A stretch of DNA of 64,000 nt from Subtercola boreus. Its GTDB lineage: Bacteria; Actinomycetota; Actinomycetes; Actinomycetales; Microbacteriaceae. The translations under genes were made by a program, and so were the position numbers. The notes below the pieces were generated by a model. The model ran no database searches, was not told the origin of the DNA, and saw only the letters and a list, made by a program, of their open reading frames with translations. Within the stretch, counting starts at the first letter, position 1. Every line of letters starts with the position of its first letter. This document shows positions 59,742 through 64,000 of the stretch, one piece after another. The DNA is taken from NCBI RefSeq assembly GCF_006716115.1, contig NZ_VFOO01000001.1:3534001-3598000 (forward strand). Direction: 5' to 3'.

Positions 59742-61217
59742 TCAGGGATTCGCGCCGGTACGCGCGCTGATGTCATCGAGGAAGGCCCTCAGGTAGGGCA
59801 GCAGCTCGACCGCACCCTGCTCCGTTCCCCGCGCACCGACGGTGATGATCGCAGAGTCGGTGATGAGGGTCAGTGTCGCCGTCACCGGATCGCGTCCGAG
59901 CTTCTCGTCGAAGAGCGTGCCGTTGCCGAGCGGAATCTCCGCGGTGCCCAGCAGTCTCTCCTGCTCCTCTGCTCGTGCACGGCCGCCGGGTGCCGAGTCG
60001 ACGGTTCCGACGATGATCGTCAGGAGACGGCCGGTGTCGTTCGAACCGTAGCTGCAGCGCACGCCGTGTTCGTCGGTGCCGGGCACGGAGTATCCGGCGT
60101 CTGAATCAGGCCCGCCGCCGCCGAGGAGGGTGGCGTCGCCGAAGCGGGGTGACCACTCCGGCAGGATGTTCGAGCCGACCGTCTCGGCGCAGGTGCGGGG
60201 CAGCGTGAACTCCGCCGGGCCGGTCGTCGCCGGAGGACTGCTTGCCGCAGAGGCAGAGGCAGAGGCAGAGGTCAGGGAGGGTGTCGGGTTCGGGCTGCCG
60301 TCTGCAGGAACCTCCAACCGAGCCGTGAGGCGGGGCAGCCAGTCGGTCAGAAGTGGTACGAGTCCGGGCCCGTCGGAGGCCGAGACGCCGCCGACGAAGA
60401 GGGAGATGTCGGCGTCGTCGCTCAGGAGATGCACCCGCGCAGCCGCACCACTGGCGTCGGCTGTGTCGCTCGTGTAGAGGACGGTTCCGTCTGGTCGGTC
60501 CGAGGCCACCAGTCCCTGGCCCCGGAGATCCGCCTCCCGGGCGGAGCGCAGGTTGTCGGGGGTGAACACGTCGACGGCGATCGTGAGCGACGGGAACCCC
60601 GTGTCGGTCGAACCGTAGGAGCAGGAGCGGCCGGGCGGCCGTGTCGGGCTGTCGAGCGGAGCGCCCATCTCTCCGATGAGGGGAGCATCGCCGTACCGTG
60701 CGGACCACTCGGCGATGATGCTCGGGTCGACCAGTGACGCGCAGGAATCGGGCAGGGTGAAGACGAGCGGTGGGGACGCGGTCGCGGTGGGGGAGGAGGC
60801 GATGCTGTCCCGGTTCCAGGTGCCGATGCCGAGCGCGTCGGTGAGCAGGAGTGTCACCACGACGGCCGCAGCCGCGATCCCGCCGAGCGCGACGAATGCG
60901 CGGCGCGGGGTGGTCTGACGACGGGAGCGACGGAGACGGCTTCGGCGCTGGGGTGCACGGTGCTGAGGGGCGGAGGCAGTGTCGAAGTCGGTGGCGGAGG
61001 CGGCGCCCGGGGTGGCGCCCAGGGCTTCGTCATCCGCCCCGGTGCGCGGGCCTCCGGTGAGCCGGCTGCCTGCCACCTCGCGGGCGGCGTCGGTGCGGGC
61101 ATCCGGAACCGCGTCGGCGATGTGTGCCGCGAGCAGCGCCCGGCCGCGGGCGAGGGCGGCATCGGTCGGCTCCGGCACGGCCCGGCCGAGGGCACGGAGG
61201 GCGGTCAGCTGGTCCAT
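59742..61217 (-). CDS. membrane partner of ECF sigma factor with duplicated outer domain
   Basis: 491 residues. A cytoplasmic part of about 105 residues (MDQLTALRALGRAVPEPTDA, then a disordered Arg/Gln-rich stretch), one membrane helix (107-126), then two related outer domains. Domain A (152-300) and domain B (336-485) share FTLPxxCA, EWSxRxGDAxL, CSYGSxDTG and LTI, each with two Cys (159/199 and 343/388). The linker is Ser/Ala-rich, encoded by a six-base repeat. ATG 61217 overlaps the sigma gene end by 13 bases, so it is probably its anti-sigma factor, although no ZAS His-Cys motif is present. Confidence 0.75.
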   Translation of the reverse strand: MDQLTALRALGRAVPEPTDAALARGRALLAAHIADAVPDARTDAAREVAGSRLTGGPRTGADDEALGATPGAASATDFDTASAPQHRAPQRRSRLRRSRRQTTPRRAFVALGGIAAAAVVVTLLLTDALGIGTWNRDSIASSPTATASPPLVFTLPDSCASLVDPSIIAEWSARYGDAPLIGEMGAPLDSPTRPPGRSCSYGSTDTGFPSLTIAVDVFTPDNLRSAREADLRGQGLVASDRPDGTVLYTSDTADASGAAARVHLLSDDADISLFVGGVSASDGPGLVPLLTDWLPRLTARLEVPADGSPNPTPSLTSASASASAASSPPATTGPAEFTLPRTCAETVGSNILPEWSPRFGDATLLGGGGPDSDAGYSVPGTDEHGVRCSYGSNDTGRLLTIIVGTVDSAPGGRARAEEQERLLGTAEIPLGNGTLFDEKLGRDPVTATLTLITDSAIITVGARGTEQGAVELLPYLRAFLDDISARTGANP

Positions 61218-61804
61218 GAGGTCGATCCTGTTCGCGGGGTGGGGCGGGGGTGTTCGAGGGTGGCCGCGTTCTGCAGCTGGCGACGCGCACGGTTCAGTCG
61301 GGAGCGCACGGTGCCGACGGGGATTCCGAGGGCGACGGCGATGCCTGCGTAGTCGAGATCGGCCCAGGCGTGCAGCAGCAGGGTGTCCCGATCGTCGTCG
61401 CTCAGCTTCGCGAGGGCGGGGGCGAGGGAGCGCACGGCGAGCTGGGCATCCATCAGGCTGTTCGAACGGTCGGCCGGATGCTCGGCAGAGCTTTCGGCCG
61501 CCACCTCGCTCATTCCGGCGGAGAGGAGCGCCTGCCACGAGCGGGCCTCGACGCGGCGATGGGCTTTGAGGAGGTTCGTGGCTATTCCGAACAGCCACGG
61601 CAGGGCATCCGGCCAGGCGGGATCGAAGCGTTCGCGCCGGTTGAAGGCCACCAGGAAGGTCTCGGACATGATGTCGTCGGCCACCTGCGCGCCCGCGCGC
61701 CGGGCCGCATACCGGTGGATGGCGCGGGCGTGCCGCTCGTAGAGCTGGCCGAAGAGCGCCGGGCTCGCCCGGGAGGCCAGGATGATGTCGCTGTCGGTGC
61801 TCAC
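61205..61804 (-). CDS. ECF-type RNA polymerase sigma factor
   Basis: 199 residues. Region 2 is FGQLYERHARAIHRYAARRA through IMSETFLVAFNRRERFDPAW and WLFGIATNLLKAHRR; region 4 is LSDDDRDTLLLHAWADLDYA then GIPVGTVRSRLNRARRQL. GTG 61804 (MSTDSDIILASR) is the natural start; the frame to 61882 overlaps the upstream transporter gene. It starts 31 bases after the MFS gene stop and overlaps the membrane-partner gene, suggesting an exporter-sigma-partner transcription unit. Confidence 0.9.
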   Translation of the reverse strand: MSTDSDIILASRASPALFGQLYERHARAIHRYAARRAGAQVADDIMSETFLVAFNRRERFDPAWPDALPWLFGIATNLLKAHRRVEARSWQALLSAGMSEVAAESSAEHPADRSNSLMDAQLAVRSLAPALAKLSDDDRDTLLLHAWADLDYAGIAVALGIPVGTVRSRLNRARRQLQNAATLEHPRPTPRTGSTSWTS

Positions 61805-61835
61805 AACAGGTCTTGCACGGTGGAGGCCGTGCGGT

Positions 61836-63206
61836 TCACGATCGGTCTGCGGTGGGCCCGGCCGGCGGTGTGGCGTGCGCACCCCGGCCGGGGTCGGCGC
61901 TGCGTAGGCCGGGGTCGGCGCTGCGTAGGCCGGGGTCGGCGCCGCGCAGGCCGGGGTCGGCGCCGCGCAGGCCGGCGGCGGCGAGTGCGGCGGCGACGAG
62001 CGCGAGCACCCCGATCAGGCTCGCCGTCGCCGACCAGCCGGCCGCATCGAAGAACAGGCCGCCCAGCCAGCCGAAGAGGCTGGAGCCGGCGTAGTAGAAG
62101 AGGTTGTAGAGCGACGAGGCCTGGGCCCGGCCGACCGTGGCCTCGGCGGCGGTCCAGCCCGAGGCGGTGGAGTGCGCCCCGAAGAAGCCGGCGGTCGCCA
62201 CCACGAGCCCGGTGAGCACCAGCACGAGCAGCGACGACAGGGTGAGGGCCACGCCCGCGATCATGAGAGCGATGGAGCAGAGGAGCACCGGGCGGCGCCC
62301 GATCCTGCTCGCGAGAGCACCGGCCTGGGCCGACGACCAGGTTCCCGCGAGGTAGGCGATGAAGACCAGGCTGACGAGCGCGGGCGGGAGCCAGAACGGC
62401 GAGGCCGCGAGCCGGAATCCGAGGTAGTTGTAGAGGGCCACGAAGCCGCCCATCAGCAGGAACGCCTGGGCGTACAGCACGAGCTGGCGCGGCGAACGGA
62501 GGTTCACCGCCAGTCGCTTTGCGAGCGGGAGGTCGGTGCCGGGCATCCGGTCGCGCCGCGGCACGAACCCCTGGGGCTGGGGTGCCAGCCGGATGAAGAC
62601 CACCGCGGCGACGGTGCAGAGCACGGCGACGGTGAACACGCCGATGCGCCAGGTCGTCAGTTCGGCGACGGGGCCGGCCACGAGCCGGCCGAGGAGCCCG
62701 CCGATCGTCGTGCCGGCGACGTAGGTCCCGGCGGCCCTCGCGGCGTGGCCCGCGATCACCTCCTCGCTGAGGTAGGCGATCGCGATCGACGGCACGCCGC
62801 CGACCATCACCCCCTCCAGGAACCGGCCGGCCAGCAGCACCTCGAAGGTCGGCGCGAAGGGAACGAGCAACCCGAGGGCGGAGGCCGCGATCACGGCGAT
62901 CGACATCGAACGGAGGCGCCCGATCCGGTCGGCCACCACCGACCACGGGATCACCCCGACCGCGAGCCCGATCGTCGACGCCGACACCACGAGGGCGGCA
63001 GAGGCGGCTCCCACGCGCAGGTCGGTGGCGATCTCGGGCAGGGCGGCCTGCGGGGAGTAGAGCTGGGCGAAGGTGGCGATGCCGGCGAAGAACAGGGCGA
63101 CCAGCAGGCGGCGGTAGGCGGGGCTGCCCTTCTCGTGGCCACGCCAGGCGGGGGTGGGGCGCGGGTGCGCGGCCCTCCCGTTCGCTGCCCGCTCGTCACT
63201 CACCAC
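61836..63206 (-). CDS. MFS exporter with repeated C-terminal tail
   Basis: 456 residues, twelve helices. FAQLYSPQAALPEIATDLRV and PWSVVADRIGRLRSM (motif A) place it among drug-exporter-like MFS proteins. The cytoplasmic tail holds four copies of a seven-residue unit, GLR(G/S)ADP. GTG 63206 is chosen because TAGGCT (63218-63213) is 6 bases upstream; GTG 63203 is next to it. It is divergent from an SMR exporter with a shared -10 box and lies immediately upstream of the ECF sigma gene on the same strand. Confidence 0.87.
   Translation of the reverse strand: MVSDERAANGRAAHPRPTPAWRGHEKGSPAYRRLLVALFFAGIATFAQLYSPQAALPEIATDLRVGAASAALVVSASTIGLAVGVIPWSVVADRIGRLRSMSIAVIAASALGLLVPFAPTFEVLLAGRFLEGVMVGGVPSIAIAYLSEEVIAGHAARAAGTYVAGTTIGGLLGRLVAGPVAELTTWRIGVFTVAVLCTVAAVVFIRLAPQPQGFVPRRDRMPGTDLPLAKRLAVNLRSPRQLVLYAQAFLLMGGFVALYNYLGFRLAASPFWLPPALVSLVFIAYLAGTWSSAQAGALASRIGRRPVLLCSIALMIAGVALTLSSLLVLVLTGLVVATAGFFGAHSTASGWTAAEATVGRAQASSLYNLFYYAGSSLFGWLGGLFFDAAGWSATASLIGVLALVAAALAAAGLRGADPGLRGADPGLRSADPGLRSADPGRGAHATPPAGPTADRS
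61886..61969. repeat. four tandem 21-base repeats inside the MFS gene
   Basis: Units start at 61886, 61907, 61928 and 61949. The first two units share GGGTCGGCGCTGCGTA and the last two the variant GCGCCGCGCA. Each encodes GLR(S/G)ADP, so copy changes keep the reading frame. There are no spacers, so it is not a CRISPR array. Confidence 0.85.
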
Positions 63207-63212
63207 CCCTTC

Positions 63213-63222
63213 AGCCTAGGCT
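63213..63222. promoter_or_regulatory. symmetric -10 box shared by two divergent genes
   Basis: AGCCTAGGCT is a perfect 10-base palindrome that reads TAGGCT on both strands. The plus-strand box is 7 bases before GTG 63230 (SMR exporter) and the minus-strand box 6 bases before GTG 63206 (MFS exporter). Confidence 0.6.
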
Positions 63223-63229
63223 GGCGCGT

Positions 63230-63568
63230 GTGGGGTACCTCTTTCTCGCGTTGGCCATCGCCAGCGAAGTCGTCGCGACGACCTTCCTGAAGTTCACGTC
63301 GGGCGAAGGCGTCACGTTCGCGAACCGCTGGTGGGCGTATCTGGTCGTGGTGGTCGGCTACATCCTGTCGTTCGTGATGCTCAGCTTCACTCTGACGCGC
63401 GGTGTGCCGCTCGGCATCGCCTACGCGGTCTGGGGCGGTGTCGGCATCGTGGTCGTGACCGTGATCAGTTGGGTGGTCTTCAAGGAGTTCCTGACCCTCG
63501 TGCAGCTCATCGGTATCGTGCTCGTGATCGGCGGGGTGCTGCTGCTCGAACTCGGCGGGCGTCGCTGA
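63230..63568 (+). CDS. small multidrug resistance (EmrE/SugE-type) exporter
   Basis: 112 residues with four helices. The essential membrane Glu is seen in LALAIASEVVATTFLKFTSG, and AYAVWGGVGIVVVTVISWVVF is the signature of helices 3-4. It exports cationic or quaternary-amine compounds with proton exchange. GTG 63230 follows TAGGCT by 7 bases. Two unrelated exporters (SMR and MFS) thus start back-to-back. Confidence 0.92.
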   Translation: MGYLFLALAIASEVVATTFLKFTSGEGVTFANRWWAYLVVVVGYILSFVMLSFTLTRGVPLGIAYAVWGGVGIVVVTVISWVVFKEFLTLVQLIGIVLVIGGVLLLELGGRR

Positions 63569-63628
63569 CGCCGGACCCGCAGCTGCCGCGGTAATCGCGT
63601 CGTAACACGGGGGATCTAGAGTCAGCGG

Positions 63629-64000
63629 ATGATCGAAGCCGCCAGCGCCGCCGCGCCCGACCCCGCTGCGTCCGAGCCCGCCGCGCCCGACCCGGCTGCG
63701 TCCGACCCCGCTGCGTCCTACCCCGCCGCGGCCGACCCGTCGGCCGCCCTGCTCGCGGCGCTCGCGCGCCATCTCGGCACCCCGCTCGAGCCGCGGCTCG
63801 TCACCCTGCCCGACGGGGTCAGAGTCGAGATCGACGGCATCGATTCATCCGGTCGCCTGCTCGTGCAGTGCATCTCGGCGGGCGGGGCGGTGAAGTCCGG
63901 GCAGCGCAACAAGGCGATGTCGGATGCCCTGAAACTCGTCTGGCTGCGATCGACCCTGTTCGTGGGTGCCCGCATCGCGCTCTGCGTGAGTGAACCGGTG
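63629..64000 (+). CDS. hypothetical protein, N-terminal part, cut by window end
   Basis: The frame is open to the right edge (124 residues visible). The first 45 residues are repeats of Ala-Pro-Asp/Glu type (PDPAASEPAAPDPAASDPAA), followed by a folded-looking part: LLAALARHLGTPLEPRLVTL, VEIDGIDSSGRLLVQCISAG, and KSGQRNKAMSDALKLVWLRS. The beta-then-Lys/Arg-rich helix pattern could be a nuclease-like fold, but this is speculation. TAGAGT (63617-63622) lies 6 bases before ATG 63629, supporting the start. Confidence 0.7.
   Translation, partial: MIEAASAAAPDPAASEPAAPDPAASDPAASYPAAADPSAALLAALARHLGTPLEPRLVTLPDGVRVEIDGIDSSGRLLVQCISAGGAVKSGQRNKAMSDALKLVWLRSTLFVGARIALCVSEPV

Follow-up and report, generated by a model that had tools for sequence, protein, structure and literature searches.

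A palindromic -10 element as the probable common promoter of two divergent transporter genes in Subtercola boreus

Can a single palindromic -10 element serve two divergent genes at once, each of them transcribed without a leader? The question arises within a stretch of 64,000 nucleotides of Subtercola boreus DNA (the window), where a gene of the small multidrug resistance (SMR) family and a gene of the major facilitator superfamily (MFS) diverge from a palindrome. The original prediction had taken this palindrome for a -10 box which drives two leaderless exporter genes in a mutually exclusive manner. From the sequence it appears probable that the two transporter genes indeed share one bidirectional promoter of the sigma-A type with a single -10 element, both mRNAs being leaderless. 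The proposed mutual exclusion found no support in the comparison with related genomes and published promoters.

Anatomy of the site and leaderless spacing

The site and its surroundings comprise the following features, given in window coordinates.

61205-61882, minus strand: gene of an ECF-type sigma factor, the next one downstream of MFS and in the same orientation
61836-63206, minus strand: MFS transporter gene (open reading frame of 456 aa, GTG start; PF07690, 5.4e-37)
63206, minus strand: predicted MFS transcription start, placed from the box position; leaderless, at the G of GTG
63213-63218, minus strand (read 63218-63213): predicted -10 box TAGGCT of the MFS gene, 6 nt from the GTG at 63206
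63213-63222, no strand: palindromic decamer AGCCTAGGCT, read directly from the sequence; two overlapping TAGGCT -10 boxes
63217-63222, plus strand: predicted -10 box TAGGCT of the SMR gene, 7 nt from the GTG at 63230
63229-63230, plus strand: predicted SMR transcription start, placed from the box position; leaderless or with a one-base leader
63230-63568, plus strand: SMR transporter gene (open reading frame of 112 aa, GTG start; PF00893, 7.2e-24)

As had been predicted, the decamer AGCCTAGGCT reads TAGGCT on both strands. The plus and minus boxes overlap by the central TA, the base pairs of which are thus common to the -10 elements of both strands, and the symmetry of the site reaches 12 bp (CAGCCTAGGCTG) in the window and 14 bp in Subtercola sp. 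Z020. The GTG start codons of the SMR gene (63230, plus strand) and of the MFS gene (63206, minus strand) are 24 bases apart. A second in-frame GTG directly follows that of the MFS gene at 63203. The MFS protein varies over about 20 N-terminal residues, which makes its start codon harder to place with confidence than the SMR start codon. A simple scan of 62900-63650 returned neither a two-box promoter of the sigma-70 type nor a terminator, and on neither side of the shared box is a -35 box recognisable.

Both gene products match their family profile above the cut-off, the SMR protein over residues 1 to 99 of PF00893 and the MFS protein in PF07690. Hence, of the two divergent exporters that had been proposed, two divergent transporters stand, while an export role or a substrate of the MFS protein does not follow, as no NCBIfam model exceeded its cut-off among all 23 matches for the SMR protein or the best 25 of 36 for the MFS protein. 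Apart from the ECF-type sigma factor gene, which we count against a plain sigma-A type shared promoter, no gene of a DNA-binding regulator was recognised in the window surroundings of the pair. In the same neighbourhood, the C-terminal tail of the MFS protein (61836-61950) consists of GLRGADPGLRGADPGLRSADP-type repeats, and the open reading frame following the SMR gene opens with PDPAASEPAAPDPAASDPAAS-type repeats (63629-63740).

The palindrome is not over-represented. A single exact copy of AGCCTAGGCT is present in the 4.2 Mb genome, compared to about four expected from base composition and to nine matches of the reversed pattern used as control, so that over-representation was rejected as an explanation; with at most one mismatch, two matches occur in the window against 0.77 expected. 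The unlikely part is not the sequence itself but its position, a single box being at the preferred leaderless distance from both divergent start codons. This spacing was derived from 20 stretches of 20 kb plus the window, together 464 kb of the 4.2 Mb genome, in which 320 genes were predicted from open frames and third-position GC with ATG and GTG as candidate starts, whereby one gene may give more than one candidate start. TANNNT precedes these candidate starts at a gap of 6 nt in 54 cases and of 7 nt in 15 cases, compared to 0 to 9 cases for each other gap between 0 and 29 nt. Both boxes of the MFS/SMR site lie at this fixed distance (6 nt and 7 nt), in agreement with the predicted leaderless arrangement, and the commonest hexamer at 6 to 7 nt is TAGGCT itself (9 of 69, both boxes of the site included). 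An A at position -16, the base which makes such a box readable in both directions, is found in 11 of these 69 leaderless boxes, which corresponds to the base rate; since there is no enrichment, such symmetry may simply be permitted, without being under selection. As a separate observation, a 400 kb sample (L092-L111) contains 132 CTAG sites where 1185 are expected, about nine times fewer, and 54 ANNNTANNNT sites where 263 are expected, about five times fewer.

Taken together with the comparison of relatives given below, this arrangement suggests that RNA polymerase may melt the central TA whichever way it faces. A polymerase facing rightward would use TAGGCT at 63217-63222 and begin the SMR mRNA at its GTG or one base before, while one facing leftward would use the mirror TAGGCT at 63218-63213 and begin the MFS mRNA at the GTG, both mRNAs thus being leaderless. 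The start sites and the use of both directions are what we infer from box positions and start codons, which place the predicted divergent starts 23 to 24 bp apart. At this distance, by our reckoning, the two -12T/-11A pairs fall on top of each other. The most likely outcome would be a low and largely independent expression of both transporters.

Warman et al. (2021) are said to have described bidirectional promoters in which a pseudo-symmetric -10 element is shared. That such promoters exist in other bacteria, as the original prediction had stated, is in print: according to Warman et al. 2026 (PMC12825309), 18 bp is the commonest distance between divergent starts, 10 and 23 bp being common as well. 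The MFS/SMR site, with one -10 region for both strands, two putative divergent mRNAs and predicted starts 23 to 24 bp apart, resembles these promoters and fits a further example of this known kind, namely of its class of about 23 bp. In contrast to the five E. coli promoters scored there for -35 hexamers on both sides, it has no recognisable -35 element and is predicted to yield two leaderless mRNAs. A further difference is that some of those promoters (acrR/acrA, soxR/soxS) lie between a regulator gene and its target.

Within Actinobacteria, leaderless genes are reported to carry TANNNT about 12 bp ahead of their start codon (PMC3160421), and for M. tuberculosis no -35 consensus was found (PMC3898074). 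Hexamer class, spacing and the missing -35 box of the MFS/SMR site are alike, yet here a single box would serve two genes. The closest parallels in M. tuberculosis are two. Rv1129c and Rv1130 (prpD) are divergent and, in a figure legend of PMC3898074, which calls closely juxtaposed divergent promoters common, both reported leaderless, as predicted here; unlike MFS/SMR, that pair includes a regulator. The promoters of lysG and lysE, the latter an exporter gene, likewise diverge and overlap; they differ in their 108 bp intergenic region, in the inverted repeat of the LysG-bound region and in that only lysE has a described leaderless start, from a second promoter, as far as the consulted part of PMC5648196 goes. 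At the level of titles and abstracts, the literature yielded no description of a dual-leaderless shared box.

Shared, split and separated boxes in Subtercola

The site was compared among 12 Subtercola genomes including that of the window (G000). An SMR orthologue is present in all 12 of them. Six genomes carry a close MFS orthologue (E below 1e-190), which is divergent from the SMR gene in five of them, namely in the window genome, in Subtercola sp. Z020 (G090) and in S. boreus P27444 (G200), P27979 (G199) and P27479 (G153); in G201 it sits elsewhere in the genome. The set further contains S. vilae (G007), S. lobariae (G203) and the MAG RYN_58 (G206). Ten genomes have a box 6 to 7 nt upstream of the SMR start codon (TAGGCT in eight, TAGGGT in two), with or without an adjoining MFS gene; before the SMR genes of the remaining two genomes, G202 and G204, no such box is seen. 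The MFS box, TAGGCT-N6-GTG, is present in each of the five genomes with a divergent pair, the window included, and is missing before the distant MFS orthologue of G201. Because it is retained even where the two boxes came apart, each half-box appears to serve its own gene.

One common palindrome is observed only in the window genome and in G090, i.e. in two of the five genomes with a divergent pair. The A at -16 occurs in exactly these two of the ten SMR boxes, those for which the MFS start lies 6 nt beyond. In G199 the site is split into AGCCTA, 15 bp and TAGGCT, and in G200 into AGCCTA, 13 bp and TAGGCT. The G200 site, which reads AGCCTAGGCG...GCCCTAGGCT, contains two copies of CCTAGG, each without the -7T of the direction that it does not serve; judged from its sequence, it looks as if the palindrome had received an insertion of 15 bp, the end of which is the second CCTAGG. 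The site of G153 resembles that of G200 and carries in addition an insert of about 1.5 kb, by which the start codons are moved 1548 bp apart. An 18 bp stretch of promoter sequence is directly repeated at the two ends of this insert, and each gene thereby retains its box.

The G153 insert itself (L071 1999-3525), located between the MFS and SMR promoters, contains two long frames, and the second seems to be broken close to a 29 bp tandem repeat. A Pfam search with its three reading-frame pieces returned no family; by eye, the frames are perhaps an abortive-infection pair of the nucleotidyltransferase type. As in the window, a frame similar to an ECF-type sigma factor gene comes after the MFS gene of G153.

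An unrooted codon tree of SMR, thiL and DUF3515 (12 genomes, 1590 columns) groups G200 with G153 at a support of 100, to which G000 (98), G090 (76) and G199 (100) are added successively. As to the order of the shared and the split form, every history that we could draw requires two changes, whichever form is placed first. Directly before the SMR gene and on its strand, G007, G202 and G204 carry the same gene, presumably that of an RNA methyltransferase. In G200, G199 and G090 the MFS gene lies between this putative methyltransferase gene and the SMR gene, for which reason the MFS gene is probably the later arrival. We infer that the shared promoter probably originated when the MFS gene landed beside an older leaderless SMR promoter.

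Alternative readings of the palindrome

The SMR gene alone might use the box, its symmetry being incidental and the MFS gene having another start, e.g. within the SMR gene, or being scarcely transcribed. The base-rate frequency of the -16 A among leaderless boxes is in line with this, and so is the wider distribution of the SMR box (ten of the 12 genomes). We nevertheless regard it as unlikely, since TAGGCT stands exactly 6 nt before the MFS GTG in all five divergent pairs, even with the boxes apart or a 1.5 kb insert between them, and since the -16 A is missing from the SMR box wherever the MFS gene is lacking or comes with a separate box.

Competition of polymerases at the shared box could, as had been proposed, act as a switch which renders MFS and SMR expression mutually exclusive within a cell. 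To our knowledge there is no activator of the MFS/SMR site, which we count against such a switch. Two polymerases cannot occupy one box together, so that steric exclusion as such is unavoidable, and we would still expect them to clash with the boxes 13 and 15 bp apart, as in G200 and G199. In E. coli, strong activation of one direction can repress the other, such repression appearing upon substantial activation; however, the basal activity of the five bidirectional promoters tested there was too low for competition (both PMC12825309). Moreover, the shared form exists in two of the five genomes with a divergent pair, and in G153 the two starts are about 1.5 kb apart. With basal firing that low in the E. 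coli examples, and with the varied states of the relatives giving no sign of selection for it, mutual exclusion is not implied by the geometry and appears very improbable.

That the palindrome is the operator of a dimeric regulator acting on both genes, with promoters elsewhere or overlapping, was rejected as hardly credible: its extended symmetry, an operator-like GGTAC-N4-GTACC upstream of SMR in other genera of the family (7 of 19 loci) and a TetR gene overlapping the SMR 3' end in the one locus checked (L016) speak for it, but the symmetry is not kept as a unit, the halves being apart in G199, G200 and G153 and each staying with its own gene at the fixed leaderless distance, which an operator would not need, the exact sequence is single-copy in the genome, and beside the pair in the window no regulator gene except that of the ECF-type sigma factor was recognised. 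The GGTAC-N4-GTACC motif was seen in L009, L011, L015, L016, L020, L021 and L024; beside the SMR gene of the window, reading of the sequence revealed neither this motif nor an overlapping TetR gene.

A shared bidirectional promoter thus remains our preferred reading. Bidirectional promoters are reported to be widespread, and from maps of start sites alone it is hard to tell a selected second direction from a by-product of symmetry. Close relatives in which one promoter is shared, split or separated, together with a thiL/DUF3515 box kept two-way across much of the family (see below), offer natural comparisons in this respect, and this series of states and the conserved thiL/DUF3515 box are the more interesting by-product of the analysis. 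In addition, the minimal geometry of two predicted leaderless genes with 24 bp between their start codons and no recognisable -35 box is of help in annotating start codons in high-GC actinobacteria.

Shared boxes at other loci

The pattern of a start codon, N6-7, ANNNTANNNT, N6-7 and a divergent start codon occurs nine times in the window genome, compared to three times for reversed patterns. Coding frames begin on both sides in three of these nine sites, which are MFS/SMR, thiL/DUF3515 and a pair of an RpiR-type and a PanE/ApbA-type gene. Summed over the 12 Subtercola genomes, the form with 6/6 nt spacing gives 37 matches versus 14 of the reversed control and the 6/7 form 43 versus 39. General selection for symmetric boxes was considered and not found, given the latter figures and the base-rate frequency of the -16 A.

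A widely conserved case is a predicted leaderless -10 box ACGGTARCCT shared by a thiL-like gene and a DUF3515 lipoprotein gene (L084 1501-1529; G000:C1:2074940-2074968). Pfam assigns the two products to an AIRS-domain protein and to PF12028; the AIRS-domain gene divergent from DUF3515 we take to be thiL. The shared box is present in all 12 Subtercola genomes. DUF3515 was found in 117 of 120 genomes searched across the family, and the best-scoring 30 of these 117 loci, representing 24 genera, were read. Among these best 30, a right-hand TANNNT box stands at 6 to 9 nt in all 30, and 27 combine the -16 A and a divergent start codon 6 to 8 nt beyond it, or 26 by a stricter pattern; the loci being related rows, a Fisher value across them is not readable as a probability. 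The middle bases of the box (CGG, GCC) are likewise conserved, which may reflect an additional constraint, e.g. a bound protein. Outside the family, DUF3515 matched in 49 of 60 genomes sampled at class level, and none of the 30 loci read from these has the shared box. In 23 of the 30, a thiL motif lies on the strand divergent from DUF3515, and one of the other seven (L240) offered only 53 bp of upstream sequence. A literature search found no paper dealing with both thiL and DUF3515.

It is conceivable, though we lean somewhat towards the contrary, that promoters in which one TA is common to two leaderless genes, with ANNNTANNNT between start codons about 24 bp apart, are a real and selected promoter type of Microbacteriaceae. 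Selection would then maintain both directions of the thiL/DUF3515 box throughout the family, while the MFS/SMR box of Subtercola would have been made and afterwards taken apart by duplication, its copies losing the direction they do not serve.

Some further sites were noted by the way. The genes of the RpiR-type regulator and the PanE/ApbA-type reductase start 7 nt to either side of one box (L091 1501-1530; G000:C1:3449505-3449534). In the MAG RYN_58, genes of an HTH-cupin regulator and of a 2OG-Fe(II) oxygenase start on either side of a shared box (L138 1501-1529), and a nearly identical sequence is present in G201 (G201:C1:4079549-4079577). Finally, a box ACTAGAG or ACTAGGG with an adjoining run of T precedes a DUF3000 gene, assigned by Pfam for the G000 copy only, in eight of the 12 Subtercola genomes as judged by eye (L088 1501-1528 and its counterparts).
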